Source: Planctomycetaceae bacterium (lineage in GTDB: Bacteria > Planctomycetota > Planctomycetia > Planctomycetales > Planctomycetaceae). From it: a stretch of DNA of 36,649 nucleotides. Shown here piece after piece: positions 14,643 to 28,715 of the stretch. The notes beneath the pieces were generated by a model. That model had not been told where the DNA came from, searched no databases, and saw only the letters and a list, made by a program, of their open reading frames with translations. The position numbers and the translations under genes were made by a program. Position 1 is the stretch's first letter; each line of letters begins with the position of its first letter. Location: positions 1 through 36,649 of the forward strand of contig JAKFVC010000219.1 of the NCBI GenBank assembly GCA_021732415.1, in the 5' to 3' direction.

Positions 14643-15085
14643 CGACTCCGAATGAGATTTGTTGCGTCTCGGGTCGATGAGAGGGTGAGGCTCCCGCCGA
14701 ACCGCATAGTCTATTGGATATCGGTAGACCCAGCGGCTCGGCGGGGTACCCTCTGGGTCCCTCGCCCTCCCATCAACCTGAATGATGACTTCCGAATGCC
14801 CGACTCGGGAGAGTCAGGCTACGGCGGACCCCGATTTTAGCATTTGAGGCGAACGGCGATAGTTCGTTATCGCGTTGTTGTCTTTTCCCATCAAAATCAG
14901 CCCATGAGTCCTTCGACCCGGAAGATCGCAGGAAGTCTCAACGCTGAACCCGGGTTACGGGCCTGTTGTGGCGTCAATTGATTCGCACGGCTAGAATTCG
15001 GGCAGATTCATCACACTCGCCGCGCACATCGGAGTGCCAGGCCCCCAAGATTCTACACCCGTTAAGTAGCGCTAGTCTCGAAATC
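14643..15085. other. Divergent intergenic region with two palindromic repeats
   Basis: No gene was recognised. An imperfect palindrome spans about 14681-14775 (GAGGGTGAGGCTCCCGCCGA on the left, GGCTCGGCGG and CCCTCGCCCTCCC on the right), related to the element at 22818-22940. The CCCGACTC hairpin copy is at 14799-14824. The promoters of the ABM and dehydrogenase genes should lie here but were not identified with confidence. Confidence 0.6.
14799..14824. repeat. Short hairpin repeat CCCGACTC-GGGA-GAGTCAGG (copy 2 of 3)
   Basis: Same family as 1390-1408 and 28171-28190, again followed by CTACGG. One stem position is changed from G to A. Confidence 0.75.
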
Positions 15086-16210
15086 ATGAAAGCGATTGCC
15101 GTCCGGCCCGGAACTCCCCACAGCGTGCATCAGCACGAGGTCCCCGTTCCCACGCTCGAAACCCAGCCCCATCCCCATGTGTGCCAGATCCCGGCCGGCC
15201 GCTCTGTGCTGGTCAAAGTGCTGCAGATTGGTGTGGACGCCACTGACCGCGAAATCAACGAGGCCCTGTACGGCAATGCGCCTCCGGGGAACGACTACTT
15301 GATTCTGGGGCACGAAAGCTTCGGAGAAGTGGTCGAGGTCGGCAAACTGGTCACCGAATTCAAGCCCGGCGATCTGGTGTCGTGTACCGTGCGGCGGCCT
15401 GGAAAATCGCTCTTCGATCAAATCGGTCGGAATGACATCACCAGCCAGAACGAATACTACGAGCGCGGCATCAATCTCTGTCACGGGTACCTGACCGAGT
15501 ATTTTGTCGATGATGCCGAGTACATGGTGAAAGTCCCTCGCGAGTTGAAGCATTTGGGGGTGCTCGCGGAACCGGCCAGTGTGTGTGCCAAGGCGATCGA
15601 GCAGGCCTATCTGGCTCAACACCGGTTGCAGGTCTGGTCGCCCAAGCGCGCGTTCGTGCTGGGATCGGGTCAGATCGGTTTGCTGGCGACGATGATGCTG
15701 CGTCTACGCGGCCTGGACGTCTTCACGGTAGCCCGAGCCCCGGGGCCGCATCGGAAGTCGGAAATCGCCCAAGCGTACGGTGCTCACTATGTCAGCACAC
15801 AAGAAACTTCACTGCACGATCTCGCCAAGAAGGTGGGGGCTCCCGACCTGATTTTCGAAGCGACCGGCAGCAGCCGGATCGCATTCCAGGCGATGGAAGT
15901 CCTGGGACTCAACGGAGCCCTGATCTGGACCAGCGTGACCGGCGGTCAGGCCGAGATCACCGTTCCGGGCGACAAGATCAACATGAATTGGGTGCTGGGG
16001 AACAAACTGCTGGTCGCCAGCGTGAATGGCAATCGACGCCATTTCGAATTGGGGATCAAGGACCTGGCTCACGGCCAGGCCCTGTTCCCGGGGGTCACCG
16101 AGCGGATCCTGACGAACCCGGTTCAAGGGTTGGACAATTACGAGGAAATGATGCGGTTGCTGGTTTCGGATAAGAATGCGTTGAAGGTCTACGTCAACGT
16201 GAGCTCGTAA
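15086..16210 (+). CDS. Glucose 1-dehydrogenase-like MDR dehydrogenase
   Basis: A 374-aa medium-chain dehydrogenase of the archaeal glucose-dehydrogenase subgroup, expected to oxidise an aldose with NAD(P). GHE at 75-77 gives catalytic zinc ligands H76 and E77, and E162 in LAEPAS fits the third acidic position. The NAD(P) Rossmann motif GSGQIG is at 193-198. The residue that is Cys in most MDR enzymes is Asp here (D51 in GVDATDREI), and the cysteine-rich structural zinc loop is missing: residues 99-132 read SCTVRRP ... ERGINLC with only two scattered cysteines. Both traits match haloarchaeal glucose dehydrogenases as I recall them. The open frame extends to 14966, but MKAIAV at 15086 is the family's normal start. 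Confidence 0.88.
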
Positions 16211-16217
16211 CTAAAAA

Positions 16218-16411
16218 GGCGAGCGTCCGGCGTAAGCCGGATGGTTTTTAGAGACCTTCGATAACCAAACAAGTTGATCTAAGCCTTTCGTGAACCGATC
16301 CTCAGCATAATTTGGATGAACATCGTCTTAGGTCGAGTCGAACGGTTTAGATCAACTGGCACGGCATCAGCAAGTCGCCAAAAACCATCCGGCTTACGCC
16401 GGACGCTCGCC
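16218..16411. repeat. Inverted-repeat element with 32-bp arms (GGCGAGCGTCCGG type)
   Basis: Arms 16218-16249 and 16380-16411 are exact reverse complements; their first 28 bases equal the outer arms at 12694 and 12968. The interior differs: it has an AGTTGATCTAA / TTAGATCAACT pair (16272-16282 / 16347-16357). It starts seven bases after the dehydrogenase stop and ends 22 bases before the next ATG. Confidence 0.9.
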
Positions 16412-16433
16412 TTGGCGCTTGAAGGCTACATCA

Positions 16434-17327
16434 ATGGCAAACCCTCGCGAATGGCTGATCAATGGCAGCGGACAGACTCCTGAGTTGAGCTGGTCGTTTG
16501 CCACTGACGCACCATTGGCCTGGCTGGAACTGGCTCGCGAGTCGGGCGAGGTTCTCGCCGCGGACCGCTCCGGGGGGATCTATCTGCTCGATCGGAACGG
16601 CCGGGTCGTCGCCGTGACGCGTGGGCCGGTGCCGGTGCGCGGTTTGGCTTGGAGCGACAACGGCGCTGCAGGCGTGGCCCTGATTGGCGATTCAAAGCTG
16701 CACTGGTTTTCCAGGCAATTGGAGTTCCGCAGTCAGTACGATTTGCCGGATACCGCACTCGCGGTCGCTGTTGATCCCCACGGCGAATACGTCGCGGCCA
16801 GTCTGGTGTCGGGGACGAATCTCATCTTTGATGGACCTCGCAAACCAATCCATCGATTCGAATCACAGCGTCCCTTCGTCAAGCTGCATTTCTTGTCCGA
16901 GATCCCCGGTTTGATCGGCGTCGCCGACTATGGATTGCTCAGCAGCCGCACCTTCCAGGGGGGAATCCGGTGGGAGGAAAAGCTGTGGGCGAGTGCCGGT
17001 GACATCGCCGCCAGCGGAAACGGCGACATGGTCCTCGTCGCGTGTTTTGCACATGGCATCACGCGGTATGACTCGGAGGGGAGCCAGGCCGGTTCGTACC
17101 AAGTGGAGGGGACGGCTTCGCGCGTGGCTTGTAGCTACCTGCCTTATCGCGTCGCAGTGGCCACGATGGAACGGCAACTGTATTGGTTGAATGTCGATGG
17201 GCGGATGATCTGGGCCGGCAATGCCCCCGAAGACATCATCCGGGTGGCCTGCGATCCGCTGGGCAAAGGTCTGGTCGTCGGGTTTGATTCCGGGCGAATC
17301 GTCAGACTGGATTGGGACGGGGTCTAG
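16434..17327 (+). CDS. Cytoplasmic WD40/YVTN-like beta-propeller protein
   Basis: A 297-aa protein with no signal peptide. Short repeating units look like propeller blades, for example GEVLAADRSGGIYLLDRNGR, IGDSKLHWFSRQLE, VDPHGEYVAASLVSG, GDMVLVACFAHGITRYDSEG, VATMERQLYWLNVDG and GLVVGFDSGRIVRLD. No catalytic motif was seen and no named family can be assigned. Similar plain propellers are common in planctomycetes as scaffold or sensor proteins. The ATG at 16434 is preferred; an in-frame TTG at 16419 would add five residues. It converges on the kinase gene, with a palindrome between the two stops. Confidence 0.8.
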   Translation: MANPREWLINGSGQTPELSWSFATDAPLAWLELARESGEVLAADRSGGIYLLDRNGRVVAVTRGPVPVRGLAWSDNGAAGVALIGDSKLHWFSRQLEFRSQYDLPDTALAVAVDPHGEYVAASLVSGTNLIFDGPRKPIHRFESQRPFVKLHFLSEIPGLIGVADYGLLSSRTFQGGIRWEEKLWASAGDIAASGNGDMVLVACFAHGITRYDSEGSQAGSYQVEGTASRVACSYLPYRVAVATMERQLYWLNVDGRMIWAGNAPEDIIRVACDPLGKGLVVGFDSGRIVRLDWDGV

Positions 17328-17330
17328 CCC

Positions 17331-17412
17331 GTGAGCGGCCCGGCGCTAGCCGCCGGTTCTTCCAAGTGAGATGTCGCACATAAGAACCGGTGGCTAGCGC
17401 CATTCCGCTCAC
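17331..17412. repeat. Imperfect 31-bp inverted repeat between convergent genes
   Basis: GTGAGCGGCCCGGCGCTAGC at 17331 pairs with a right arm ending at 17412; three mismatches in 31. It begins three bases after one stop and ends 32 bases before the other, which fits a bidirectional terminator or a dispersed palindrome. A GGGCGCTAGCCCACGG fragment at 33314 resembles its arm. Confidence 0.8.
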
Positions 17413-17444
17413 AAACAGAGGTCCATTTACCTCGGGGATACAGC

Positions 17445-19199
17445 CTAAGCCGGTCGGTAACTGGAATAGGCATCAATCACCATCGACGACGGCGTGGCGG
17501 CTTCGCTTTGCTTGTTCCCCGGGAAATTGCTCTGGTAGAACCAGAACAGGAACGCTGACAGGCCTACCAACGCCAACGTGGCGACTCCGACGGTGGCGAC
17601 CATCCAGCGAGTTTGCTGTTGCAGCGGATCGCTGATCCACGATCGCAGCCTGGGCACGGTATCAACCACGATTTCCATGCTGCTGGGAACCTTGCGTTCC
17701 ATCGTGGCCGTTCGCGATTTTTGCGTTCGTGCTTGAGCTGCCGCGCCAGTTCCCCCCACCGGCGTGGTCTGGGCTGTACCCGCGGCTTGTTGCGCGGCTC
17801 GTTGTTTGGCTCGGCGACGACGTTCCAGTTCCTTGCGTTCGGCTTCAGTGCGTTCTGGCGCGGGCTGGACCACCGCGGGACTGGATTGCTCGCTGGTTCC
17901 GGCCGCAGCGGCCAAGTTGGCAACGGGACTCGTCGACGTCGAATAGATCGGCGGCTGATTCGATCCCGGCTCTGTGCCACGAATGGTAACGCCTCCCGGC
18001 AGGCTGGTGGCGAACGACGAGGTTGCCGCAACCGGTGCCGCTGAGTTCGCGTTCTCCGCAATTGTTTGTGCGTACATTTGCGGCTTCAACGAATCGAGCC
18101 CATAGATCGTCGCAACCAGTGAGAAATGCTGGGTCTTCCAGGCCTGCCCGCCATTCTCGACCAGCCAGCGTGCCAGGACCTCTGCCAACTCGGCAGCCGA
18201 CTGATAGCGGTCGGCTGCCTTCTTAGCCATCATCTTGTCAAGAATCGCCATCAAACTTTCCGGTGCGTCAGCTCGTTCTTCGAGAACAGGCTTGGGCGAC
18301 TTGGTCTGATGGGCAAACAACCGCTGGACTAGAGTCCCCTCGGTAAAGGGCGGGTGTCCGGTCAAAGCAAAGTAGAACGTGCAACCCAAGCTGTAGAGAT
18401 CCGCGCGGGCATCCACCTTATGGCTGTCAATGGCTTGTTCGGGTGCCAGATAGTCAGCAGTCCCGAGCACCTTTTCGTCGTGCTTGATCGTCAGTGATTC
18501 TTCATCCGTCTGATCGAACAAACGAGCCAGACCCAAGTCGAGAATCTTCACCGTCCCCTGCGCATCAATTAGCAGATTTTCCGGCTTGATGTCGCGATGG
18601 ACCAGGCCAGCCTGATGGGCATGACTGAGACCATCGGCCGCCTGGCGGATGTAGTCGACTGCTTCGACATACTTCAGCGGGCCCTTCGCCGTGACGATCT
18701 TCTCGAGGTTGCGGCCTTCCACAAACTCCATGACCAGGAAGTGGATTTCGGCACCGCCGTCGAATTGCTGATCGACGTCGTAGGCTCGCACGATATTCGG
18801 ATGGTTCAGCGACGCGACCGCTTTGGCTTCGCGGTGGAATCGTCCCAGGTACGATGTATCCTTGACTCGGTTGCCGGGGAGGACCTTAATCGCACAGCGT
18901 CGTTCCAGCAGCATGTGTTCGGCCAGATACACGGCGCTCATTTCGCCCGCCCCCAGCAGTCCGAGCAGCTTGTAGCGTCCCAGGATGAATCCCTTGTGTC
19001 GCCCCTGCAGCAGTTTTTCCGATTGCCACTCGGTAAGAGCCCCCCGTTGGACCAGGGCGTGAGCAAGGGCCGCCGCGTCGTGCTGGTCGACTCCGTTCCG
19101 ATCCAGGTCGGCGACGATGGCATCAAGTTTGACGCCATCGATCAGTCCACTCTGGCGAACACCGAGCAGGAATGAAGCGGGAGTTAATTTAATCGTCAT
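17445..19199 (-). CDS. Membrane-anchored Ser/Thr protein kinase
   Basis: A 584-aa Hanks-type kinase. A conserved 70-residue helical N-terminal region (ALTEWQSEKLLQGRHKGFIL) precedes the kinase domain, as in many planctomycete kinases. Catalytic features: glycine loop GAGEMS at 83-88, Lys105 in AIKVL, Glu124, HRDIKPEN at 201-208, DLG at 221-223 in place of DFG, and APEQ of the activation segment. A proline/alanine/threonine-rich linker leads to one transmembrane helix at about 532-554 and a short outer tail. The third glycine of the loop is Ser, and DLG is a tolerated variant; all residues needed for catalysis are present. It is the last of six same-direction genes starting at the bactofilin, which hints that cluster members may be substrates. 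Confidence 0.95.
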   Translation of the reverse strand: MTIKLTPASFLLGVRQSGLIDGVKLDAIVADLDRNGVDQHDAAALAHALVQRGALTEWQSEKLLQGRHKGFILGRYKLLGLLGAGEMSAVYLAEHMLLERRCAIKVLPGNRVKDTSYLGRFHREAKAVASLNHPNIVRAYDVDQQFDGGAEIHFLVMEFVEGRNLEKIVTAKGPLKYVEAVDYIRQAADGLSHAHQAGLVHRDIKPENLLIDAQGTVKILDLGLARLFDQTDEESLTIKHDEKVLGTADYLAPEQAIDSHKVDARADLYSLGCTFYFALTGHPPFTEGTLVQRLFAHQTKSPKPVLEERADAPESLMAILDKMMAKKAADRYQSAAELAEVLARWLVENGGQAWKTQHFSLVATIYGLDSLKPQMYAQTIAENANSAAPVAATSSFATSLPGGVTIRGTEPGSNQPPIYSTSTSPVANLAAAAGTSEQSSPAVVQPAPERTEAERKELERRRRAKQRAAQQAAGTAQTTPVGGTGAAAQARTQKSRTATMERKVPSSMEIVVDTVPRLRSWISDPLQQQTRWMVATVGVATLALVGLSAFLFWFYQSNFPGNKQSEAATPSSMVIDAYSSYRPA

Positions 19200-19300
19200 G
19201 GTGACTCATCTCACAGGTCAACTGCGAGCCGGGGGACAAAAGGATGACATACACTAAATATTTCAAAAGAGGATTTGGATCCTCTCGGAGCAAACAGCGA

Positions 19301-19723
19301 CTAGGAACCGATGGCGACGACTTCGATATCCAGAACCAGAGACTCGCCAGCCAAAGGGTGGTTGGCATCGAGACTGACTTCCTCATCATTGACTGTACGA
19401 ATCCAGACATCCAAGTCTTGTCCGGCACACTTCACCACCAGTTGATCGCCTTCTTCGACGCGGTCCATCAAAGCCAGCCGGGGTGCGTTTTGCTGGAGTC
19501 GCGGGTCGCGGTAACCAAATGCCTGATCGGGTGAAATGATCACATGTTTGCGTTCACCAATTTTTAGTCCCATCACTGCGAGGTTCAGCCCTTCGATGAC
19601 ATCCGGACTGCCAACGGTGAATTCAAACGGCTCACGATGTTCCGACGTCTCAACCATGTTGCCTTGTTTGGATCGCGTTTCGTAATGAATCCGAATCCGA
19701 TCTCCCAGACGAGCGGTTAGCAT
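19301..19723 (-). CDS. SlyD-like FKBP-type peptidyl-prolyl isomerase
   Basis: A 140-aa protein that should catalyse prolyl cis-trans isomerisation and act as a folding helper. The FKBP half has GDRIRIHYE at the N-terminus, then FEFTVGSPDVIEGLNLAVMG and KHVIISPDQAFGYRDPR. An inserted flap domain is followed by NHPLAGESLVLDIEVVAIGS, the signature end of SlyD-type FKBPs. There is no signal peptide, so it is cytoplasmic. The histidine-rich metal-binding tail of E. coli SlyD is missing. The open frame reaches 19792, but an AAAGGA ribosome binding site before 19723 supports this start. It lies 101 bp upstream of the kinase gene, same direction. Confidence 0.92.
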   Translation of the reverse strand: MLTARLGDRIRIHYETRSKQGNMVETSEHREPFEFTVGSPDVIEGLNLAVMGLKIGERKHVIISPDQAFGYRDPRLQQNAPRLALMDRVEEGDQLVVKCAGQDLDVWIRTVNDEEVSLDANHPLAGESLVLDIEVVAIGS

Positions 19724-19848
19724 TAATGTGCGTCCTTTCGAGATCGGAGAACTAGTTGATGATTCGAATAAACACGGATCAGGTTTGTGCAAAAATGTCA
19801 GTCGCTACTCTACATCCGCCCTTACGGGACGGGGCTCACCAGATCAAT

Positions 19849-22722
19849 TTAGCTGTCGGAAAACACATCCCATGCCCAACCGTCGTTGGTCGTAGGTGGA
19901 GTTTCGGGTTGTTCAACTCGCGGAGTACGATTGGGCGAACTGATGGCTCGATCAATCGCCGCCGGCTTGCCGGGCTTGATCCCTTGGACTGCGTCGCGAA
20001 CTCGTTGATCAACAGCCAGCCGCAGCCCCTGCAGTTCACGATGAGCTTCGCTGAAGTCAACAGTCTGAGCCGCGATCACCTGCATGCGATGCAATCGTTG
20101 TTCCAGTGATGCCTGAACCTGATCACTCAAGATTCTCTTGCTGATCGTGGCCGACAGGTGCTGAGCCAACGCATCAACCTCTGCCGTGAGCAATCGCCGA
20201 CACTCATCAATTTCGGACTGCCGCCTTTGCGACAGGGTTTCGCGTTCTTGTTCGTTCCGCCACACATTCAGTTCCAGAATGCGGCCGGTCGCGATGTGGT
20301 CGTGCTGAGTGGATTGCATCTCGAATGCTTGCCGCCAATCGCGTTGGTCATGGCTGAGATGCGACAGGACTTCGGTCTCCAGCGTGACGGGGTCGACCGT
20401 TGGCATCCAGAGATCGTTGAATCTCAGGTGCGGGATTTTCAGTAGTTCACCACTAATCACATGGCGCGGATCATTTTCCCGCAAGGCCAGTGTCGAGTGG
20501 GGCGAGAAGATCGCTCGCAGGTGTTCGATGGTGCGGCACAGGCAGGCAATGCCGGCCTTGGTGCGTGCCGATTCATGGGACCGGCTGTAGGCGGCCAATT
20601 CCGTAATGACGCTGTCGGTGCGGTCCAGAATCTCATCCCGCAGTAATTCGGCATCGCGACTGGCCAACGTACGTCCCTGGGCAGGCTTCGACGCACACAA
20701 CCGCAACCAGCGGCTGGCGTAGTCGATGGCCTCGCGGATCATCGCCAGCATCGCCTCGTGCGGGAAGGTGATGGCTCCGATCGCGACGGTCGCGGTCGCT
20801 TCGTTCACCGTGGATTCGAGCCGCACGCATTGAGTTAGCCGATCAATCTCCGATTTCACCCAGTTCCGCTCGGTTTCCTGTCCGGTACGAATGGGTTTCA
20901 GCAGTTTGTAGACGATGCGGAAAACCTCTTGCCATTTGCTCCACAAGCGCACGGCTTCGGGATGGCGGATCGTGGGGCTGGCGGTCAGCGTCCAATGAGC
21001 GTGCAGGAAGAGCAGCGACGTGCGAGTCGCCAGCGAATATTTTCTTATCGTTTCCGGCAGCCAGGTCTCGACAGTTTGCTGTAGCGTCTCCATCTCACCT
21101 TCCCACCGCGAGAGATCGCAATCCGGTGTGAAGAGGTCGGCGGCTTGCCCCTGCAACTGCTGGCCGTAGGTCAGGACGCGGCTGCAATAGTTATAGAGAT
21201 GGCTCAGACCGGGAGTGATGCGGAACGAACGCAAGATCGACGCCGCCGATGGGGATGAGGCCAACAAAGCGGGAATCAGGGACGCGGCCCGCAGGAAGAA
21301 GCCAGTTCCGGCATTCCATTCCGGGCTGCTCGAATTGAGGAGCTCCGGTTTGAACTGCTTCAGGTCTTCTTCGAGCAAACGAGCAATTTCTCCTTTCGAA
21401 TAGCAGAGATGTCGACTGAGGGCCAGGGCATGCATGACCCACGCCGGCAGGATGTAGGCGTCACCCTGCAGATGGCTTTCCGAACTGCGAGTCAGATGAT
21501 AGGCCAGGGCGGCTCGGTCATCCCACAAGAGCTGCAGTGTGACCTGCGACATCATCGTTCGCCGGCTGGCCGCATCGGCTTGTAAGGCTCGTCGGGCGAG
21601 AATCCCCACATTGCCGTTGGCCGGTGCGGAGGTGGGCACACTGGCGGCGCGAATCGGTTGGGACTTCGCCCAATGGTACGGGTCTTCAGAGAGCAGTTTC
21701 CGATCGAGTGAACGGGAATTTCGTCCCGCAGATTGATCGGTCGCCCCACCACCAATCGAGTCGAATATCGAATCCTGATTCGTATCCAGAACGCTGTCAT
21801 CTGAACCGACGTCATCGAGAATGTCCCAACCGACAGTCGTCAACGGAGCGACGGCGGCCGGTTCTGCTGGTGACGCGACCTCTTCCGCAGGATAGACGGT
21901 CAGTCGCTGGCTGGAGGCGTTACCAAGCGGTTCCACACTCTGAATGAATTTGACGCTGGGAATCGTCGCGTCAACTTGGCGAACCTCGTCCGGTTGCACG
22001 TCTGCGGAGCGTGACGCGAAGTCATCATGAATATTGCTCGCGTCACTTGCCGGCAGGGCATTGACCACGGCGGTAGGCACGGCGCTGGCGACATCAGCCG
22101 TTGTGCAATTCGCTTCCTCGTTAGCAACTGGTGCAACTTGATCGAGTGCAGGCAGCGATCGAATCTTGCCGCGAGCAACAGCCGTCGCGAGTGTCCGTCC
22201 CCACTTGGCGGTGACCTGTTCCTGGTACGCAGTCCAGTCATCATCCGAAAGGTCGTCAGCCGAGTTGACCAGCTTTAGCAACGCGTTGAACGGATGGCTG
22301 CCGTGAGCCAGATTGGTGAATTCCTCGTTGGCTGCGGTTGTGGAATCGAGCTGCGTCTTCAACTCGGCGGCACTCTTCTGGCAGTCGTTCAGGGCCGCGA
22401 AGGTGGGGTCGTCAGCGTGGCTCAGCGAGAGTATGCGGTCCAGCGTGGTGACTGCCCGATCGTGGGTCTCGCTGCGGGCGATTGCCGCTTGAACGTTTTC
22501 CAATGAGACTTCGGTCTCGGGGCCGACCTGGGCCGCTTCGGTGAGTTTCATCAGCCGAATGCGGAAGGCGATCAGGCCGTCGAGAAGCTCGTCGGGGGGT
22601 AATGCTCCCACGATTTTCAACTGACTGGCATGGCGTGCCAGATCTGAGCTCAGAGTCTCCTGCAATTGCCGGAGCTGATGCAATTCTGCGCGTGCTGTCG
22701 TCAATTCACAGGCAGGCTGCAT
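19849..22722 (-). CDS. Large protein of unknown function, paralogous at its N-terminus to the 202-aa neighbour
   Basis: A 957-aa protein of no family I recognise. Residues 1-190 align along their length with the 202-aa protein at 23398-24006: both start with a QLRQL helix, share GS/NS-HP, and end W-x(3-4)-EQ...GR-x-(L/V)-ATA-(V/I)-AR. A disordered Ala/Pro/Val/Asp-rich linker (about 191-370) contains GWDILDDVGSDDS at 298-310. The rest (about 380-930) is predicted helical, with coiled-coil-like Glu/Gln/Arg-rich stretches, and the final ten residues are GWAWDVFSDS, echoing the linker motif. No signal peptide or membrane segment. A strong GGGAGGA before 22722 decides the start over the longer frame to 22812. 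Confidence 0.85.
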   Translation of the reverse strand: MQPACELTTARAELHQLRQLQETLSSDLARHASQLKIVGALPPDELLDGLIAFRIRLMKLTEAAQVGPETEVSLENVQAAIARSETHDRAVTTLDRILSLSHADDPTFAALNDCQKSAAELKTQLDSTTAANEEFTNLAHGSHPFNALLKLVNSADDLSDDDWTAYQEQVTAKWGRTLATAVARGKIRSLPALDQVAPVANEEANCTTADVASAVPTAVVNALPASDASNIHDDFASRSADVQPDEVRQVDATIPSVKFIQSVEPLGNASSQRLTVYPAEEVASPAEPAAVAPLTTVGWDILDDVGSDDSVLDTNQDSIFDSIGGGATDQSAGRNSRSLDRKLLSEDPYHWAKSQPIRAASVPTSAPANGNVGILARRALQADAASRRTMMSQVTLQLLWDDRAALAYHLTRSSESHLQGDAYILPAWVMHALALSRHLCYSKGEIARLLEEDLKQFKPELLNSSSPEWNAGTGFFLRAASLIPALLASSPSAASILRSFRITPGLSHLYNYCSRVLTYGQQLQGQAADLFTPDCDLSRWEGEMETLQQTVETWLPETIRKYSLATRTSLLFLHAHWTLTASPTIRHPEAVRLWSKWQEVFRIVYKLLKPIRTGQETERNWVKSEIDRLTQCVRLESTVNEATATVAIGAITFPHEAMLAMIREAIDYASRWLRLCASKPAQGRTLASRDAELLRDEILDRTDSVITELAAYSRSHESARTKAGIACLCRTIEHLRAIFSPHSTLALRENDPRHVISGELLKIPHLRFNDLWMPTVDPVTLETEVLSHLSHDQRDWRQAFEMQSTQHDHIATGRILELNVWRNEQERETLSQRRQSEIDECRRLLTAEVDALAQHLSATISKRILSDQVQASLEQRLHRMQVIAAQTVDFSEAHRELQGLRLAVDQRVRDAVQGIKPGKPAAIDRAISSPNRTPRVEQPETPPTTNDGWAWDVFSDS

Positions 22723-22817
22723 TGTGTCGTCCTCCCGCTCACTGGTCCTGGCTGGTGCCATTCGAGTGGCGGAACGCATTAGAAACGGAGTCTGAATATT
22801 TATTGTGGCCATGTGTT

Positions 22818-22940
22818 GGGGGCGAGGCTCCCGCCGAGCCTAAAGCGACCGCAGGTCGGCGTCCGCCGGAGGCCCCGTTTGCTGCCTCCGGCGGTCGCCG
22901 AGCTAAAGCTCGTGCTAGGCTCGGCAGGAGCCTCGCCCTC
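22818..22940. repeat. Palindromic element with 23-bp arms between two unknown genes
   Basis: GGGGCGAGGCTCCCGCCGAG at 22818 pairs with the right arm ending at 22940; an inner GTCCGCCGGAGGC / GCCTCCGGCGG pair lies within. It resembles the imperfect element at 14681-14775, and a fragment (GGGAGGGCGAGGCT) occurs near 36511. It lies between the stop of the 111-aa gene and the start of the 957-aa gene. Confidence 0.8.
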
Positions 22941-22957
22941 CCATCTCATACAAGCAC

Positions 22958-23293
22958 TTACGGCAACGACGCATGCTGTTCCATCAAGCTATGAATGCTG
23001 TCGCCTTCTTCCAGATCGTGGGCCAGTTCGTCGGCACTCGAAATCACGGTCGAGTCCGAGGACGCAGGTTTAGCCATTGCCGGCGGACGTGGTGTCGAAT
23101 TCGCCGCACGTTGGCGGCTATTCGTTCCTGAGGGCATTCCAGCCCCGGGGCTTTCGGCATCCATCCGCACATTGAGTGCCTCCATCAACGATTCGTAAAC
23201 GGAACGTTGAACTTCTGGCGACTGAAACGAGTTCACAATCGCCGCCATCCCCGGGAGGTAGGACAGCATTAACTTATAGCGTGCTGCGTTCAT
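22958..23293 (-). CDS. Small protein of unknown function in the bactofilin cluster
   Basis: A 111-aa protein not recognised. The first 45 residues (ARYKLMLSYLPGMAAIVNSF, then a VYESLMEAL helix) look like a compact helical domain. A Ser/Pro/Ala-rich linker follows, and the tail ADELAHDLEEGDSIHSLMEQ is acidic and helical. This plan of short ordered ends with a flexible middle suits an adaptor between two partners, which is inference. There is no signal peptide. It lies between the two paralogous unknown genes in the same direction, with about 104 bp to the upstream one. No strong ribosome binding site, so the start is moderately certain. Confidence 0.65.
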   Translation of the reverse strand: MNAARYKLMLSYLPGMAAIVNSFQSPEVQRSVYESLMEALNVRMDAESPGAGMPSGTNSRQRAANSTPRPPAMAKPASSDSTVISSADELAHDLEEGDSIHSLMEQHASLP

Positions 23294-23397
23294 AGGGTTT
23301 GCTCTCTGTTCCGTTGCAGGACGATAATCGGGAATTGGCCCAGGGATCCCCGCTGCAGATCGCCAGATCTGCCCCGGTGGAAAGTCAAATTGTTACT

Positions 23398-24006
23398 TCA
23401 ACAGTTTGTGTCGCGAATCAGGAGTTTATGGCGAGCAATCGCTGTCGCGACTTCACGACCGAGTTGTTTCGCACACTGCTCCAGCATCTCTGTCCACTGA
23501 GCGTCCTCTAATGAGTCACTCTGTGTCGTCAAGGCCCACAAGATGGCCAGTGGATGCTGACTATTATTCAAAGCGGTCATGGTTTCATCAGACTTCGAAC
23601 TTTCGCTGAGAACCTCGTCACGAGCTGTTTCGCACGCTTGCTGTACGACCGCCACCACCAGATGCTGATCACCTTCGACGTGCGAGACTCCCTGAATGCG
23701 GCCGAGCAGTTCGAGTGCCCGGCTGCGGGACATCTTGCTGGTGAGTTCCGTCTCCAAATCGGTTAAGGTCCCCGGAGCGGCACTCGCACTCTGGTCGCCG
23801 CGTGCAGACTGATCCTGCAACCAGGATCGCATCTTGAGAAACTCGTCGCGATAGTTCTGCAAATCGGTAATGAGCTCCGCAGAAGGGCTGGTCCCTTGCG
23901 TGCGCAAGCCATTCGCCGAACGCTCCATCGAATCCCCGAGACGCGCGCTGAACTCTTTGAGCTGCCGGAGCTGGTGTTCTATTTCGTCGCAGCTATAGTC
24001 CACCAT
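23398..24006 (-). CDS. Protein of unknown function, paralogue of the N-terminal domain of the 957-aa protein
   Basis: A 202-aa, mainly helical protein with no signal peptide. It matches residues 1-190 of the product of 19849-22722 over its full length. Shared landmarks are the N-terminal HQLRQL, a leucine-rich LITDLQNYRDEFLKMRSWL helix, GRIQGVSHVEGD aligned to DRILSLSHADDP, a SQHPLAILWAL segment aligned to SHPFNALLKLV, and the end EQCAKQLGREVATAIARHKL. This places a repeated domain in two genes of one cluster. Its function is unknown. About 222 bp, including a palindrome, separate it from the bactofilin gene. Confidence 0.78.
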   Translation of the reverse strand: MVDYSCDEIEHQLRQLKEFSARLGDSMERSANGLRTQGTSPSAELITDLQNYRDEFLKMRSWLQDQSARGDQSASAAPGTLTDLETELTSKMSRSRALELLGRIQGVSHVEGDQHLVVAVVQQACETARDEVLSESSKSDETMTALNNSQHPLAILWALTTQSDSLEDAQWTEMLEQCAKQLGREVATAIARHKLLIRDTNC

Positions 24007-24079
24007 TTTGACTCCCCGGCCACAGTCACACTCATTAAGTTATACCGCTTTAACACAAGTTCTACGCCGACTGAAAGTA

Positions 24080-24176
24080 TGAGAGTGCCAGTGTGTGAGG
24101 GTATGAGAGTCGAGAATAGTCGAATTCCGGCCCTCTTACTCCGTTACTCTCACACGCTCATACTCTCCACCGCATT
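24080..24176. repeat. Imperfect palindrome of TATGAGAGT/ACTCTCATA repeats
   Basis: GTATGAGAGTGCCAGTGTGT and GGGTATGAGAGTCGAGAA on the left side mirror TTACTCTCACACGCTCATAC on the right. The left half itself holds two copies of GTATGAGAGT 23 bases apart. It lies between the bactofilin stop and the start of the 202-aa gene. Confidence 0.65.
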
Positions 24177-24228
24177 TCGAATGCGTAAACATTAAGTGAA
24201 GCCACTCTAACGACGTCACGGACTGAGA

Positions 24229-24750
24229 TTACTTGGTGCCGATTAGAGTCTTGTCGTTATCGTTGTACTTGTCGGCCTGCTTGCCATTGGTGGCCTGACC
24301 ACCGACCTTGAAGCGACCATTGAACGTGGAACCCGATTCGACGTTCAGGTTCTTAGTGATCACGTCACCGTCAATGATGCCCGAGGCCTTGATAATCAAG
24401 AGGCCGTGCGCCTGGACGGTGCCATTAACACGGCCCGAGACTTCAGCGTGATGTGCAACAATGTTGCCTTCGACGATCGCCGAGGGGCTGACCATCAACG
24501 TGGCCTTGGTGGCGACGTCACCACGCACGGTACCTTCGAGGATCAAGTCCCCTTCGGCCGTCAGATTGCCGTCGATGATCGTCCCTTTGCCAATAATGTT
24601 TTGCGACACTGCGGGCTTGGTGCGAGCTGCGGGAACCGCGGCATCCTGGGCCAGCGAGTCTTCGATATTATTGATGGTCCTGTTGAGATTGGCGAGTGGA
24701 GCCGTGATGTCCTGCGAGACGGTCTTCTTGGGTTGCTTCGTGCCAAACAT
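24229..24750 (-). CDS. Bactofilin (polymer-forming cytoskeletal protein)
   Basis: A 173-aa bactofilin (DUF583). The central region, about 50-150, is a right-handed beta-helix of short hydrophobic repeats: IIGKGTIIDGNLTAEGDLIL, VRGDVATKATLMVSPSAIVE, GNIVAHHAEVSGRVNGTV and SGIIDGDVITKNLNVESGST. Disordered ends flank it, as is usual. Bactofilins polymerise without nucleotide into filaments that scaffold cell-wall enzymes, stalks or polar complexes, usually beneath the inner membrane. The gene is the first of six in one direction, preceded by an AGAAAGG ribosome binding site. Neighbouring genes may encode client or adaptor proteins, which is inference from position. Confidence 0.94.
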   Translation of the reverse strand: MFGTKQPKKTVSQDITAPLANLNRTINNIEDSLAQDAAVPAARTKPAVSQNIIGKGTIIDGNLTAEGDLILEGTVRGDVATKATLMVSPSAIVEGNIVAHHAEVSGRVNGTVQAHGLLIIKASGIIDGDVITKNLNVESGSTFNGRFKVGGQATNGKQADKYNDNDKTLIGTK

Positions 24751-25302
24751 GCGTCATACCTTTCTTAAGGTGAATCAGGGCTCGTGATATCAGGTCAGTT
24801 TCTACACACGGGACTCGAACAATCAGGGCAAATTCGCCCCAGACAATTCCCGCGTGCCGAGCTAAGGACTAGCTCTGCCGACAAGGCTTGAGCAAGTTCT
24901 GTTCGCATCTGATCAATCTCACGCCGCGACGGCCCGCAATTCGGCGACTCGTGCAGGACGTATCGACTGTGCGGAATGTGTCAGGACGTGGCGACCGATT
25001 ACGCGGATGATCCCAGAGGAAGCGGACCTCGGGCGACTAAGAAAGTTTGTTGGGACACGACCAAGAGTGGTGTGTCGTGTGGCGAAAAAACCACATGTGG
25101 AGAGGACTGACGCATCACGGCAACATCGATTCGATGCGAGTGCATGAGCGCATTTCGGCCCGGAGGGCCCGACGTAGGTAGCCAGAGGCGGAAGCCTCTG
25201 GACCGAATCACAAAGGCAGGAAATCGCCCCGGAGGGGCCGACGAACCATCGCCGGCCCCTCCGGGGCGAAGACCATGGATTCGTCGCTGTATTGAACAAT
25301 TC
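24751..25302. other. Intergenic region upstream of the bactofilin gene
   Basis: 552 bp without a convincing gene. It holds small hairpins (GAGCTA/TAGCTC near 24859, TGTGGCG-type near 25078) and the GC-rich element at 25184-25268. The bactofilin promoter should lie here; no confident site was found. Open frames on both strands overlap the hairpins and are judged spurious. Confidence 0.6.
25184..25268. repeat. GC-rich hairpin pair after the thioredoxin-like gene
   Basis: CGCCCCGGAGGGGCCG at 25225-25240 pairs perfectly with 25253-25268; a smaller stem CAGAGGC/GCCTCTG lies at about 25184-25200. A related GGCCCGGAGGGCCCGACG sits at 25158. The larger hairpin ends 35 bp after the stop of the minus-strand thioredoxin-like gene and could terminate it. 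Confidence 0.8.
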
Positions 25303-25884
25303 CTACTTACCGAAGTAATCGGGCTCCTGACCCGGACGCCACTTGATGTTGCAACCAATACTCGGCCGTTGTTCGGCAGAGACCGACTTCCCAGCCAGGA
25401 CGGCATCGATCGCGGCTCGCAGATCTTTTCCCGTCACGGGGAGACCGTTGCTCGGACGGCTGTCATCGAATTGTCCGCGATAAACCAGTCGGCGGTCTTT
25501 ATCGAACAGATAAAAATCGGGAGTACACGCGGCGCGGTACGACTTAGCCACCTCTTGAGTCGCATCAAACAGGTACGGGAAGTTGTAGCCGGCGTCTTGT
25601 GCCTCTTCGATCATCTTGGCGGGACTGTCGGCCGGATAGGCATCCGAATCGTTCGAACTGATCGCCGCAATGGCCAGACCCTGCGGGACATAGTCTCGCC
25701 CCAGTTGAGCCAGGGCAGAGCGCAGATGTTTCACGAACGGACAGTGATTGCAGATAAACATCACGAGCAGCGCGGGGGCATCGGCGAACGTCTCTAGCGA
25801 GACCTGCTTGAGAGTCGTGTCAGACAGTGAAAACGCCGGGGCAACGGTACCCAGGGGAAGCATGGTGGAGGGAGTTTGTGCCAT
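25303..25884 (-). CDS. Thioredoxin-fold redox protein (AhpC/TSA-like)
   Basis: A 193-aa protein with a CNHCPFVKH motif at 45-53, the CxxC redox centre of this thioredoxin-like subgroup. APAFSLSDTTLKQVSLETFA before it and DYVPQGLAIAAISSNDSDAY after it fit the peroxiredoxin/TlpA-like fold. The cis-proline region reads AACTPDFYLFDKDRRLVYRG. No signal peptide, so probably cytoplasmic; it may reduce disulfides or peroxides, but the substrate is not evident. AGAAGG eight bases before the ATG supports the start. Members of this group in planctomycetes are usually annotated only as thioredoxin family. Confidence 0.92.
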   Translation of the reverse strand: MAQTPSTMLPLGTVAPAFSLSDTTLKQVSLETFADAPALLVMFICNHCPFVKHLRSALAQLGRDYVPQGLAIAAISSNDSDAYPADSPAKMIEEAQDAGYNFPYLFDATQEVAKSYRAACTPDFYLFDKDRRLVYRGQFDDSRPSNGLPVTGKDLRAAIDAVLAGKSVSAEQRPSIGCNIKWRPGQEPDYFGK

Positions 25885-25930
25885 GTGAAGTACCTTCTGG
25901 CTAATATCGAGTGGTCAATCTCAGAAGTCA

Positions 25931-26035
25931 CCCGTGGCGGACGCTGCTAGCGTCCGCGATGGTTTGTCTTAACGCATCGTCCTACATGAAATCGAAACCG
26001 ACGCTGGCAGCGTCGGCCACCGGTACGGCCACGGG
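25931..26035. repeat. Palindrome of the CCCGTGGC-GACGCT family
   Basis: CCCGTGGCGGACGCTGCTAG at 25931 is mirrored by GACGCTGGCAGCGTCGGCCA and GGCCACGGG ending at 26035. Each side also contains its own small palindrome. It sits between CoaD and the thioredoxin-like gene, both on the minus strand. Confidence 0.75.
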
Positions 26036-26042
26036 CAGGGAT

Positions 26043-26567
26043 TTACGGTGTCGTTCCCGGCCGCAGTTTTTGCAGCAGCGGGTTAATGATCGCGGATGGG
26101 ACGAAGACCTTCAACTGTTGAATGGATTCCGTGCCCCCAAGCTGCACGACTTGCTTGATCAGCGAGCTCGAAATGTGAGTGTATTTTTCGCTCGACATCA
26201 GGAAGACAGTTTCGATTTCGGGCGCGAGAGCGCGGTTGGCCAGGGTGAGTGTGAATTCATTTTCAATGTCTGACAAAGTCCGCATCCCGCGCACGAGAAC
26301 GGCGGCACTGCAATGCCGCAGGAAATCGACCGTCAGTCCGTGAAAGACTTCCACCGCGACATTGGTCAGGCCCACGATCGATTGATGAATTAACTCCATC
26401 CGTTCGTCTGGAGTGAATAAGGGCGTCTTTCCGGGGTTGGTTCCGACGCCAATCGTAACACGTTCAAACAGGCGCGAGGCTCGCTGGACAATATCCAGAT
26501 GTCCGAACGTAAAGGGGTCGAAACTGCCCGCATAGACGGCGTGATGTGGGTTGAGCGTTGCGGCCAT
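26043..26567 (-). CDS. coaD: Phosphopantetheine adenylyltransferase
   Basis: CoaD joins ATP and 4'-phosphopantetheine to give dephospho-CoA, the fourth step of coenzyme A synthesis from pantothenate, in the cytoplasm. The 174-aa protein has AVYAGSFDPFTFGHLDIVQR with the TxGH nucleotide-binding motif at 20-23, GVGTNPGKTPLFTPDER, LVRGMRTLSDIENEFTLTLA (the RGxR site) and the ISSSLIKQVVQLGG C-terminal signature. Length is close to the family norm of about 160, with a slightly extended tail. AAGGA lies nine bases before the ATG. The gene follows an exported esterase gene on the same strand, with 24 bp between them. Confidence 0.97.
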   Translation of the reverse strand: MAATLNPHHAVYAGSFDPFTFGHLDIVQRASRLFERVTIGVGTNPGKTPLFTPDERMELIHQSIVGLTNVAVEVFHGLTVDFLRHCSAAVLVRGMRTLSDIENEFTLTLANRALAPEIETVFLMSSEKYTHISSSLIKQVVQLGGTESIQQLKVFVPSAIINPLLQKLRPGTTP

Positions 26568-26591
26568 GATATTGGGTCCTTGCCGTACTCA

Positions 26592-28115
26592 TTACGGCTG
26601 GTGATGTTTCAGAAATGCGGCGACCATTTCTTTGCGAATGCGTCCGGCCAGTCCATCGGCAAACAAATTGAAATGATTCTTGCCAGGCAGGATTTCGATC
26701 ACCGCATCGCTGCCTAACTCTGTGAGTGTCGCCTTCAGCCGCCGAGTGGCACCGTCCAAATAAAAAGTATCGTCCGCTCCCATGAAGACATGTATCTTAC
26801 CCGCTAACTGCGGAGCAATCTGCGGCCAGGCCAGCAGCAGTCTCAATCGGATATCATACCGTTTCCACGTCTCGGCGACTTCCTGATTAATGGCGCCAGT
26901 ACGTCGATCCCAGATTTGCAGTGGAGCTCCATCCATTCCCCGCGGACTGAACACGGCTTCGAAGCTTTGCATCTGACCGCCGTATCCGAGAACGTGCTCC
27001 ATATCGCAAAATCGATCGGCCCAGAGAAGGATGGTTTCGCCATTGCGCCCCAGGGGCCGCCGATTCCCCGCTTCATCTCGAAACAGATTGGCGTTGGGTT
27101 GATAGAGATTGACCCGCTGAAAATCAGTGAAGTCGACCGAATCAGGGGCCGTGCTCCATGCCCCACCGAAAGATTCCGGATAGGTTGTCTGCAACCAGAG
27201 GGTACTCCAGCCTCCGGAGGAATGGCCCGTCAAGAACCGCGCCGTCGGCATCGCGACGGTGCGATAATCTTTATCCAGTTGAGGCAGAAACTCCGTGATG
27301 AACGCCTTACCCACCGGTCCGTTGTTGGCAGAATCGGCAAACACGTGATGACCACGGGCACAGGTCGGATTGAGCGTTACTCGGATGAATTCGACACCAC
27401 GTTCGTTTTGCTCCTGAACCGGCGGCGCGGACGCGACACTGTAATGATCGCCTCCGAACCCAGGCACGACCAGAATCACAGGGTAACGACGCTCGGGAGC
27501 CGATTGGTAACTGGCAGGGAGTTGCACGCCGGCCTTAAAGAGAACCTCTCGGCCATGAAATGCACTGAGCAACTCGCTGCGAACAACTAATTCTTGGCAG
27601 CGGTCGGATGTCTTAAACATCGTTTCGGGGACGATCTGATTCACCAGGAGTTCAATCCCAGGCGCATTGGCAGCAGGAGCCGCCGCGGTCTGAGCGCTGA
27701 AGCCGTTCCCGGGGCCAGTTCCCACATCGCGATCATGCGGATTCAATCGGACGACCGCCTGCACGCGGCTGTCTTTCAACTCAAGCTCCTCCAAGGGTTG
27801 AGGAAAACTGAGCAATCCTGCTGTGGCCGGCGAGATGCTCAGGGGTTCGGCGGGATTCCAGTTCTTGACGTCCAGCGCGACAAACGGTTCGGGATGAAAC
27901 CAGTCGGGGCCAGTGCGTGGTTCATCTTTATTGCGACCATTGAAGAACAAGTAGACGCGGCCGGTGAAGGGCTCTTGCCGGACGGTCGGGGCCATTCGGA
28001 CGGAAAACTTCCAGTCGGCTGCCGAGGCCACAGTGATGGTCAGCGAGGCGTAGACCGCGATGGTCCACAACAACTGCCGCGTTACAGCCAGGCGATTCAT
28101 CGGACGATGCAACAT
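26592..28115 (-). CDS. Exported alpha/beta-hydrolase of the esterase D/enterochelin-esterase group
   Basis: A 507-aa protein with a signal peptide (LLWTIAVYASLTITVASAA). An N-terminal beta-rich region of about 190 residues precedes a PF00756-type esterase domain. YPVILVVPGFGGDHY forms the oxyanion region, and the nucleophile elbow GHSSGG at 297-302 gives Ser299. An aspartate in MGADDTFYLD (448-449) and His481 in PGKNHFNLF complete a plausible triad. The substrate is unknown; planctomycete relatives are annotated as putative esterases. GGAGAAA upstream of 28115 supports this start over the internal ATG at 28100. CoaD lies 24 bp downstream, so co-transcription is possible, though no functional link is known. 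Confidence 0.9.
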   Translation of the reverse strand: MLHRPMNRLAVTRQLLWTIAVYASLTITVASAADWKFSVRMAPTVRQEPFTGRVYLFFNGRNKDEPRTGPDWFHPEPFVALDVKNWNPAEPLSISPATAGLLSFPQPLEELELKDSRVQAVVRLNPHDRDVGTGPGNGFSAQTAAAPAANAPGIELLVNQIVPETMFKTSDRCQELVVRSELLSAFHGREVLFKAGVQLPASYQSAPERRYPVILVVPGFGGDHYSVASAPPVQEQNERGVEFIRVTLNPTCARGHHVFADSANNGPVGKAFITEFLPQLDKDYRTVAMPTARFLTGHSSGGWSTLWLQTTYPESFGGAWSTAPDSVDFTDFQRVNLYQPNANLFRDEAGNRRPLGRNGETILLWADRFCDMEHVLGYGGQMQSFEAVFSPRGMDGAPLQIWDRRTGAINQEVAETWKRYDIRLRLLLAWPQIAPQLAGKIHVFMGADDTFYLDGATRRLKATLTELGSDAVIEILPGKNHFNLFADGLAGRIRKEMVAAFLKHHQP

Positions 28116-28170
28116 GTGATGGATTTCTCCGCGTGGAGTGGTTAGTCGGCGTGCTGACGTTTCGAAATCG

Positions 28171-28190
28171 CCCGACTCTGGAGAGTCAGG
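28171..28190. repeat. Short hairpin repeat CCCGACTCT-GG-AGAGTCAGG (copy 3 of 3)
   Basis: Same family as 1390-1408 and 14799-14824. It lies between the unknown gene at 28230 and the esterase gene. Confidence 0.7.
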
Positions 28191-28229
28191 CCACAGGTGC
28201 GTCAGTGTACTGGCGGCCGTTCGGTGCGT

Positions 28230-28715
28230 CTACTTTTTGAGAGTTGGGGCCAACTGGCAGTCTATTAACAGAACACGAAGGATGTGACGCACCAGTTCCG
28301 GCTCAAATTCGGCATCTTCGGGTACAGATTGCTGAGTCGTGGCGGTTCCGACTTTGAATGACCTAGCCAGATGGCCAAGTCTAACGCACATTTGCCCCAG
28401 AAAAGACGCCAACTCGGTGGAGTCCAGTTCGTAACGCAGCAGGAGGGTTTCAGTCGATGTTTCCTGGCGCGTCAGACGGGCCAACGTCGTACCTTGCGAC
28501 CGGTAAAGGCTACCATCGACAAATGCCCGGCGCAATCGATCGTCTGAGTCGAAATGGTAGACTGGATCACCCCCAAAGTAGATAGACCAGCGACCGTCTG
28601 AATGTTGGCCGGCAACGATTGGGTCAGCGAATTCGGGCAACGTAAGGGAAATTCGGGGAAAGAGAGCGACCATCTCCGCCATCAGGTCTTCGCGATCCGA
28701 ACTGTGCCTCGCCAT
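28230..28715 (-). CDS. Protein of unknown function
   Basis: A 161-aa soluble protein not recognised. It contains FPRISLTLPEFADPIVAGQH, YFGGDPVYHFDSDDRLRRAF and a charged LARLTRQETSTETLLLRYEL stretch, and ends in a hydrophobic helix LVRHILRVLLIDCQLAP. The DSDDRLRRAFVDG sequence and repeated beta segments hint at a small mixed-fold domain but no family fits. There is no signal peptide. The first in-frame start upstream is at 28763; the ATG at 28715 with CAGGA before it is preferred. Confidence that it is a real gene comes from consistent codon composition and the ribosome binding site. Confidence 0.7.
   Translation of the reverse strand: MARHSSDREDLMAEMVALFPRISLTLPEFADPIVAGQHSDGRWSIYFGGDPVYHFDSDDRLRRAFVDGSLYRSQGTTLARLTRQETSTETLLLRYELDSTELASFLGQMCVRLGHLARSFKVGTATTQQSVPEDAEFEPELVRHILRVLLIDCQLAPTLKK

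Follow-up and report, generated by a model that had tools for sequence, protein, structure and literature searches.

A kinase-linked bactofilin gene cluster with a paralogous twin domain in the Planctomycetaceae

A run of six genes on the minus strand of a planctomycete contig, spanning positions 24750 to 17445, encodes a bactofilin, a 202-amino-acid (aa) protein, a 111-aa protein that we call p111, a 957-aa protein, a SlyD-like FKBP and a Ser/Thr kinase. The window, that is, the whole stretch of DNA that was analysed (36,649 nucleotides, contig JAKFVC010000219.1), comes from a Planctomycetaceae bacterium assembly (GCA_021732415.1; 9.87 Mb, 98% complete). One domain, hereafter the twin domain, is common to the 202-aa protein and the N-terminal part of the 957-aa protein. 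The reading that we favour, and hold to be probable, is that the run forms one system, in which the membrane kinase and the adaptor p111 would control a scaffold of helical and tetratricopeptide repeat (TPR) proteins, with the bactofilin as one output. A functional link among the cluster genes is well supported by genome comparison: the gene order, whole or partial, recurs in 13 genera (hand count), bactofilin and p111 co-occur, and a minimal form of the cluster exists. The first-pass annotation had proposed a regulated scaffold on the strength of gene order; its link stands, and for the mechanism (physical contacts, phosphorylation of p111 or of the bactofilin, a role in cell shape, stalk or bud) we infer rather than observe, the steps documented here being genomic. 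One well-studied type of bactofilin system is linked with cell-wall peptidases; if our reading is true, the association of a bactofilin with a signalling kinase and two unnamed protein families would represent a different way of running a bacterial cytoskeleton. Planctomycetes are budding bacteria, and their shape control is poorly understood. The six genes are as follows:

24229..24750, minus strand: bactofilin, 173 aa (PF04519, E 2.9e-25; PDB match to Bactofilin A, 2n3d, E 2.4e-14)
23398..24006, minus strand: 202-aa protein, a stand-alone twin domain, predicted all-helical (pairwise match; structure model)
22958..23293, minus strand: p111, 111-aa adaptor-like protein (no match above cut-off in Pfam, NCBIfam or PADLOC; 27-row alignment)
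19849..22722, minus strand: 957-aa protein consisting of twin domain, linker and helical C-terminal region (open reading frame (ORF), alignment and model)
19301..19723, minus strand: SlyD-like FKBP, 140 aa, or 163 aa from an upstream start (FKBP_C, E 5e-16; SlpA/SlyD structure matches)
17445..19199, minus strand: Ser/Thr kinase, 584 aa, with HRDIKPEN and DLG (Pkinase, E 2.2e-49)

ORFs, coordinates and Pfam place the run exactly where, and on the strand on which, it had first been described. Pfam names three of the six proteins, the bactofilin, the kinase and the FKBP (E values as listed). For the 202-, 111- and 957-aa proteins neither Pfam nor NCBIfam gives a match that exceeds the cut-off, and neither they nor the bactofilin have a PADLOC match at E 0.001.

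Among 170 genomes of the order, p111 is present in 30, all of them Planctomycetaceae, and it is always in this family that p111 is found in a phylum sample (5/292 genomes) and a class sample (8/223, searched with the 27-row profile). The 957-aa profile matched 24 of the 170 genomes, of which 22 were retained (we dropped G061, a 54-residue match, and G121, which has the twin domain only), and 6 of 392 genomes in another phylum sample, G061 included, again all from the Planctomycetaceae. The full run reads bactofilin-twin-p111-957-[TPR]-FKBP-kinase, the bracketed gene being one that the window lacks. In 13 of the 30 p111 genomes the bactofilin shares a run with the twin/957 pair; another seven, all of one genus, carry a minimal bactofilin-p111-TPR-kinase form without twin, 957 or FKBP genes (locus L086 is cut off inside the TPR gene, and L087 has an in-frame stop in p111); and one, G112, has bactofilin, p111 and kinase only, a three-gene form that makes the kinase-bactofilin link directly testable. 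Five more have unbroken clusters without a bactofilin, to which we return below. The remaining four are G105, G019, G001, which is cut by a contig end and has neither twin nor bactofilin ahead of p111, and G142, with a truncated p111 and no partner adjoining. G020, a 31st genome, carries 957-TPR-FKBP-kinase, its contig beginning inside the 957 gene.

The 957-aa family is accompanied by the kinase in the run in 18 of its 22 genomes (the other four are two contig ends, one split cluster and one scattered set of genes), and 14 of the 22 have a strong bactofilin as defined below, 13 of these within the run. The unnamed genes are thus mostly found in the company of a bactofilin or a kinase, as the first-pass annotation would have it. 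In each of the 21 cases where the bactofilin is adjacent, the run begins with it. In relatives neighbouring genes abut or overlap, as with twin and p111, by 4 bases, in L021 (overlaps were measured on longest ORFs, and larger ones may be start artefacts). The order is kept even though the cluster proteins are mostly only 20-60% identical to those of the window, and the scanned flanking genes vary between clusters.

PF04519 matched 32 of the 170 order genomes at E ≤0.001, 24 above the family cut-off and 22 at more than 80 bits, which we define as a strong bactofilin. In 21 of these 22 genomes the strong bactofilin sits inside a p111 cluster; in the 22nd, G105, it lies at a contig edge, and p111 is on a different contig. 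Strong bactofilins are absent from all 140 p111-negative genomes, eight of which have weak matches of ≤30 bits. Ten genomes with matches of ≤30 bits only were not counted (G001, G059, G069, G116, G117, G120, G147, G150, G151 and G152), those of G059 and G151 being just above the family cut-off. Fisher's test gives p 2.3e-21 by genome and 1.9e-8 by genus (10/14 vs 0/44); as the genomes are related, the genus figure is the safer one, although it too ignores the tree. In a further sample of the phylum a bactofilin above cut-off is present in 76 of 274 genomes, and, among the matches listed, those outside the family belong to other classes, except for G457 (same class, other family), whose match is marginal (E 5.2e-6). 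Since strong bactofilins occur almost exclusively in p111 clusters, and unbroken clusters without a bactofilin exist, it is the bactofilin that appears to depend on the cluster, not the reverse.

The window bactofilin scores 88.8 bits against PF04519 (curated cut-off 27.9), also matches structure 6ria, and is the sole PF04519 match of its genome assembly. The bactofilin tree was flagged with warnings for long branches and letter make-up; in it, a 100/100 branch separates the 21 cluster bactofilins from 50 rows that represent 29 other loci. The protein begins with a short peptide of interest:

24727..24750, minus strand: N-terminal peptide MFGTKQPK of the bactofilin, resembling MFSKQAKS of Caulobacter BacA

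MFSKQAKS is the membrane-targeting peptide of Caulobacter BacA, according to PMC12448750. Beyond the bactofilin domain, which the two proteins share, their N-terminal peptides resemble each other in MF plus lysines; the proteins differ in lysine spacing by one (positions 5 and 8 in the window, 4 and 7 in BacA) and in their genomic partners, and we do not carry BacA's stalk role over to the window protein. An MF start is present in 20 of the 21 cluster bactofilins and MFxxK in 18 (L068 and L076 have other spacing, and L087 has no MF in its ORF); in several loci this start is internal to the longest ORF and was chosen by us. The peptide suggests that the window bactofilin is probably held at the membrane.

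Between the bactofilin and the kinase in the simplest cluster stands p111, with a conserved core, a variable linker and a conserved tail in the 27-row alignment:

23171..23293, minus strand: p111 N-terminal core YLPGMAxVVNSFxSPxVQ...LMxAL, conserved in 27 rows
22988..23020, minus strand: p111 C-terminal motif HDLEEGDSIHS, conserved in 27 rows

Core positions L13, P14, A17, N21, F23 and Q29 and tail positions G97, I100 and H101 are unvarying in 27/27 rows. The alignment covers 27 of the 30 p111 genomes, leaving out the L085, L089 and L087 genes (G105, G142 and G132, respectively). Both ends are retained in the five clusters without a bactofilin, and the p111 of the bactofilin-p111-kinase-only form keeps the core and SIH. 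Furthermore, p111 and the kinase share one run in 24 of the 30 p111 genomes (of the other six, three are cut by contig ends: G001, G102 and G135). Because the two genes so often share a run and the conserved p111 ends persist, the p111-kinase pair is most likely, as judged from sequence, the core contact of the system. In L089 (3616-3969, G142) p111 has no tail and no bactofilin, TPR or kinase gene beside it, and looks like a remnant; the two genes that come next correspond, by size and order alone, to the KDO-transferase and SecA genes flanking the minimal cluster of L082.

The kinase qualifies as a Hanks-type Ser/Thr kinase by its Pkinase domain and its HRD and DxG motifs, as read from the sequence. 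Two further features were noted:

18984..19199, minus strand: kinase N-terminal segment of some 72 residues, which precedes the kinase domain and looks similar, on visual comparison, in 25 cluster kinases
17544..17600, minus strand: predicted kinase transmembrane segment (hydropathy only; 19-residue maximum 2.20 at residue 534)

HRD and DLG are intact in 25/25 cluster kinases, and 23 of the 25 have a clear hydrophobic segment near the C-terminus. The PASTA-type PknB/Stk1 kinases are likewise membrane-anchored with a Hanks-type domain; the window kinase differs from them in scoring 312 against an NCBIfam cut-off of 450, in having no PASTA domain in Pfam, and in its own N-terminal segment and short C-terminal tail.

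The sharing of this domain by the 202-aa protein and the N-terminal part of the 957-aa protein, which had been proposed at first reading, is confirmed: the two are 30% identical over 189 aligned positions (E 3e-18, single comparison). Of the 22 genomes with the 957-aa family, 18 have both copies by a twin-domain profile, one copy being missing, cut off or unreadable in the other four. The longest ORF of the large gene encodes 987 aa from an upstream ATG at 22812; the 957-aa start (ATG at 22722, with GGGAGG just ahead) looks better by eye. Two parts of the protein can be delimited:

22162..22680, minus strand: twin domain within the 957-aa protein (matched by the 202-aa protein at residues 45-217 of the 987-aa frame)
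19942..21630, minus strand: C-terminal part of the 957-aa protein, conserved and for the most part predicted helical (alignment; predicted local distance difference test score (pLDDT) <50 over most)

The model of the 202-aa protein, built from 4 alignment rows, has eight helices (pLDDT 81.4, predicted template modelling score (pTM) 0.71). Fold searches with it gave no clear relative: the best Foldseek E is 0.099, and the best VIA Z is 7.4 over 93 residues at a root-mean-square deviation (rmsd) of 3.0, tied with a match over 171 residues at rmsd 8.4. The rows for 14-3-3 and talin were left unused, as they look like helical-bundle background. The whole 957-aa model (pLDDT 41.8, pTM 0.27) was not taken into the fold search. 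Profiles of the twin domain, the 957-aa protein and p111 gave weak rows against solved structures, the best being chlamydial IncA (E 0.0037) along with coiled-coil designs, which we take as helical background.

In the twin-domain tree small and large copies are largely separate (3 changes vs 13.8 with shuffled labels; 0/500 shuffles as low). A tree with the large twin domains constrained to one clade is not rejected (approximately unbiased test, p-AU 0.18), but the best tree requires 3 changes, which leaves one ancient duplication unproven. The twin domain is present in 18 of 223 genomes of the class sample, some in other families, where it is joined to TPR-like repeats, at times with a small twin beside it. 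In L079 (6039-11170, G121) a 215-aa twin protein precedes and overlaps a 1495-aa protein with a twin domain, HEAT repeats and a WD40-type propeller, which is a different scaffold built with the same twin module. The 1868-aa protein of L160 (4480-10086, G051) combines a twin domain, a 957-like region and a P-loop-like region (AAA_22 below cut-off); it was ruled out as a fusion of a 957-aa and a TPR protein, as it does not match TPR profiles. In L153 and L154 (G633 and G627), which belong to another family, a gene for a CAP-domain (PF00188) protein comes after a TPR-twin and a small twin gene. Because elsewhere it is joined to TPR-like, HEAT-WD40 or P-loop-like parts, the twin domain looks like an assembly module for solenoid scaffolds.

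The window lacks a TPR partner that 18 of the 22 genomes with the 957-aa family have, a point that goes beyond the first-pass annotation. Where present, the TPR gene follows the 957 gene and encodes 568-1263 aa if not cut off:

19724..19848, minus strand: site of the TPR gene in 18/22 genomes with the 957-aa family, with none in the window (gene-order comparison)

The spacing from the 957 gene to the FKBP gene is 56 bases in the window and 79 in its genus mate G002, neither with a TPR gene there; G105 also has none at the 957-adjacent site, and G001 is unreadable at that point. The window has lost this gene; an ortholog sought elsewhere in its genome was not recognised, other TPR proteins there giving partial matches. 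All six TPR partners scanned have strong TPR repeats. The longer forms appear to start with an NTPase-like region, the one such match being to AAA_22 in L024 (E 0.0013, below cut-off), and a conserved HVL-type C-terminal tail (SHVLDDLF and similar) is found in 16 of 18 TPR proteins, one of the other two being cut off. The FKBP can be assigned as SlyD-like on its FKBP domain and a near full-length structure match, residues 7-138 aligning with SlpA/SlyD-type chains; its NCBIfam scores (64/125 and 59/174 bits) are below the cut-offs. In one gene-order reading the L022 FKBP is masked by an overlap rule, and in another it is visible.

On our favoured reading, the membrane-anchored kinase would act with p111 as its adaptor or substrate. 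Around this unit, a cytoplasmic scaffold may assemble from the small and large twin-domain proteins, likely pairing via the twin domain, and, in most relatives, the TPR protein, and the SlyD-like FKBP might help to fold or regulate these scaffold proteins. The bactofilin would be the output, the kinase/p111 unit setting when or where its filament assembles. A bolder version, which we put forward only tentatively and consider less likely than not to hold in full, is a family-specific, kinase-governed bactofilin cytoskeleton: the p111 ends would clamp kinase and scaffold, bactofilin filaments would exist in this class only as the output of the switch, and the twin-domain paralogues would constitute a new module for heterotypic assembly, combined across planctomycetes with various solenoids (helical, TPR, HEAT-WD40).

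Several observations weigh against our reading. Five unbroken clusters without a bactofilin, from genomes that are 95-100% complete (G028, G034, G110, G120 and G184; the bactofilin of G120 is a 22-bit match only, far from the cluster), mean that the bactofilin is dispensable; the cluster is therefore not simply a bactofilin scaffold. The cluster genes are scattered over contigs in G105 and split in G019. Among the p111 genes left out of the alignment, the tail has diverged in G105 (SSIH kept, the glycine not) and is lost in G142, and G132 has the in-frame stop; in two of the 27 aligned rows (L024 and L088) the tail serine is Asn, which makes an obligate phosphosite there unlikely. The hydrophobic segment of the kinase is weak in L078 and absent in L024. 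G051, which is outside the family, likewise has a 957-like region, and the 957-aa relative of G184 is short (534 aa) and without a twin domain. Of the window's five gaps, two exceed the width seen in most relatives, and one holds a repeat. Finally, the FKBP gene is inverted in place between the TPR and kinase genes in five clusters (L071, L072, L073, L074 and L078) and so is not always in one transcript with the rest.

Some of these points would also be expected if kinase, p111, twin and TPR proteins made up a signalling machine whose main task is not cytoskeletal, with an optional bactofilin that merely localises the machine at the membrane. The five clusters without a bactofilin, in which p111 retains both ends, fit this picture, as does the occurrence of the twin domain without p111 in other families. 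So does the kinase tree, on which bactofilin presence needs 6 changes, at least 3 of them forced by well-supported branches (G020 is scored there as lacking a bactofilin: the genome search found none, though its contig starts inside the 957 gene). It is harder to square with the distribution of strong bactofilins, which 22 of the 30 p111 genomes have and the order's p111-negative genomes all lack, with G112 keeping its bactofilin next to p111 and kinase only, and with the bactofilin leading the run in all 21 adjacent cases; we consider this alternative unlikely.

We judge it improbable that the genes merely share transcription or hitch-hike together without a common function. The wide gaps in the window, with the repeat in one of them, and promoter and terminator signals that do not rise above shuffles would suit such an explanation; against it, the order is kept in 13 genera despite mostly 20-60% protein identity, even where the FKBP gene is turned round, while the scanned flanking genes change from cluster to cluster, and the bactofilin co-occurs with p111 alone. 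More improbable still is an anti-phage defence system with the kinase as sensor. The kinase does match PADLOC kinase models (PD-T4-6, E 6e-103), and the distribution is patchy (30/170 genomes); yet the PADLOC matches consist of kinase models plus a TPR model for one relative's TPR protein only, and a generic Hanks-type kinase would, in our view, match such models anyway.

Among the closest known systems is the bactofilin-M23 peptidase (BacA-LmdC) module of Hyphomonas neptunium and others, with adjacent genes in 226 species according to PMC10945521. In both cases a bactofilin gene is conserved beside a membrane-bound partner; the partners in the window are instead the kinase, p111 and the twin proteins, with the TPR protein added in relatives, and a Pfam scan of nine genes between 16419 and 26567 found no M23 peptidase next to the window bactofilin. 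The titles and abstract openings of the open-access literature that we found describe no comparable kinase-bactofilin cluster. The bactofilins of other planctomycete classes, from the same phylum, fall on the other side of the tree and are often paired: 21 of 29 loci examined (L105-L134) have adjacent bactofilins, the second copy being more divergent. Ten scanned proteins neighbouring such bactofilins include no M23 peptidase and one protein kinase, the divergent neighbour of a single bactofilin in L113 (1384-3289, G258, another class), which is possibly a second bactofilin-kinase link.

Of the palindromes first reported in two gaps of the window, those in 22812-22958 hold up as nested inverted repeats; 23990-24240 has no inverted repeat at the settings used, only a 15-nt direct repeat. 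The former are a copy of a dispersed repeat of about 125 bp:

22820..22938, no strand: dispersed palindromic repeat in the p111-957 gap (nested inverted repeats; not part of the system)

This repeat was scored at 40 places in the genome, this one included, from 400 first-look candidates, and the palindromes are therefore a feature of the genome, not of the cluster; it resembles a small mobile or REP-type element. Promoter-like and terminator-like sites in the window are not above shuffles, and the run may form one transcript or several. Rfam at gathering scores found nothing in 15000-28500. Beside the kinase lie convergent beta-propeller-like and dehydrogenase-like genes (16419-17327 and 14966-16210). 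No match to the bactofilin-side neighbours of the window was seen in G002; the beta-propeller-like and dehydrogenase-like neighbours are retained there at 96% and 90% identity, respectively.

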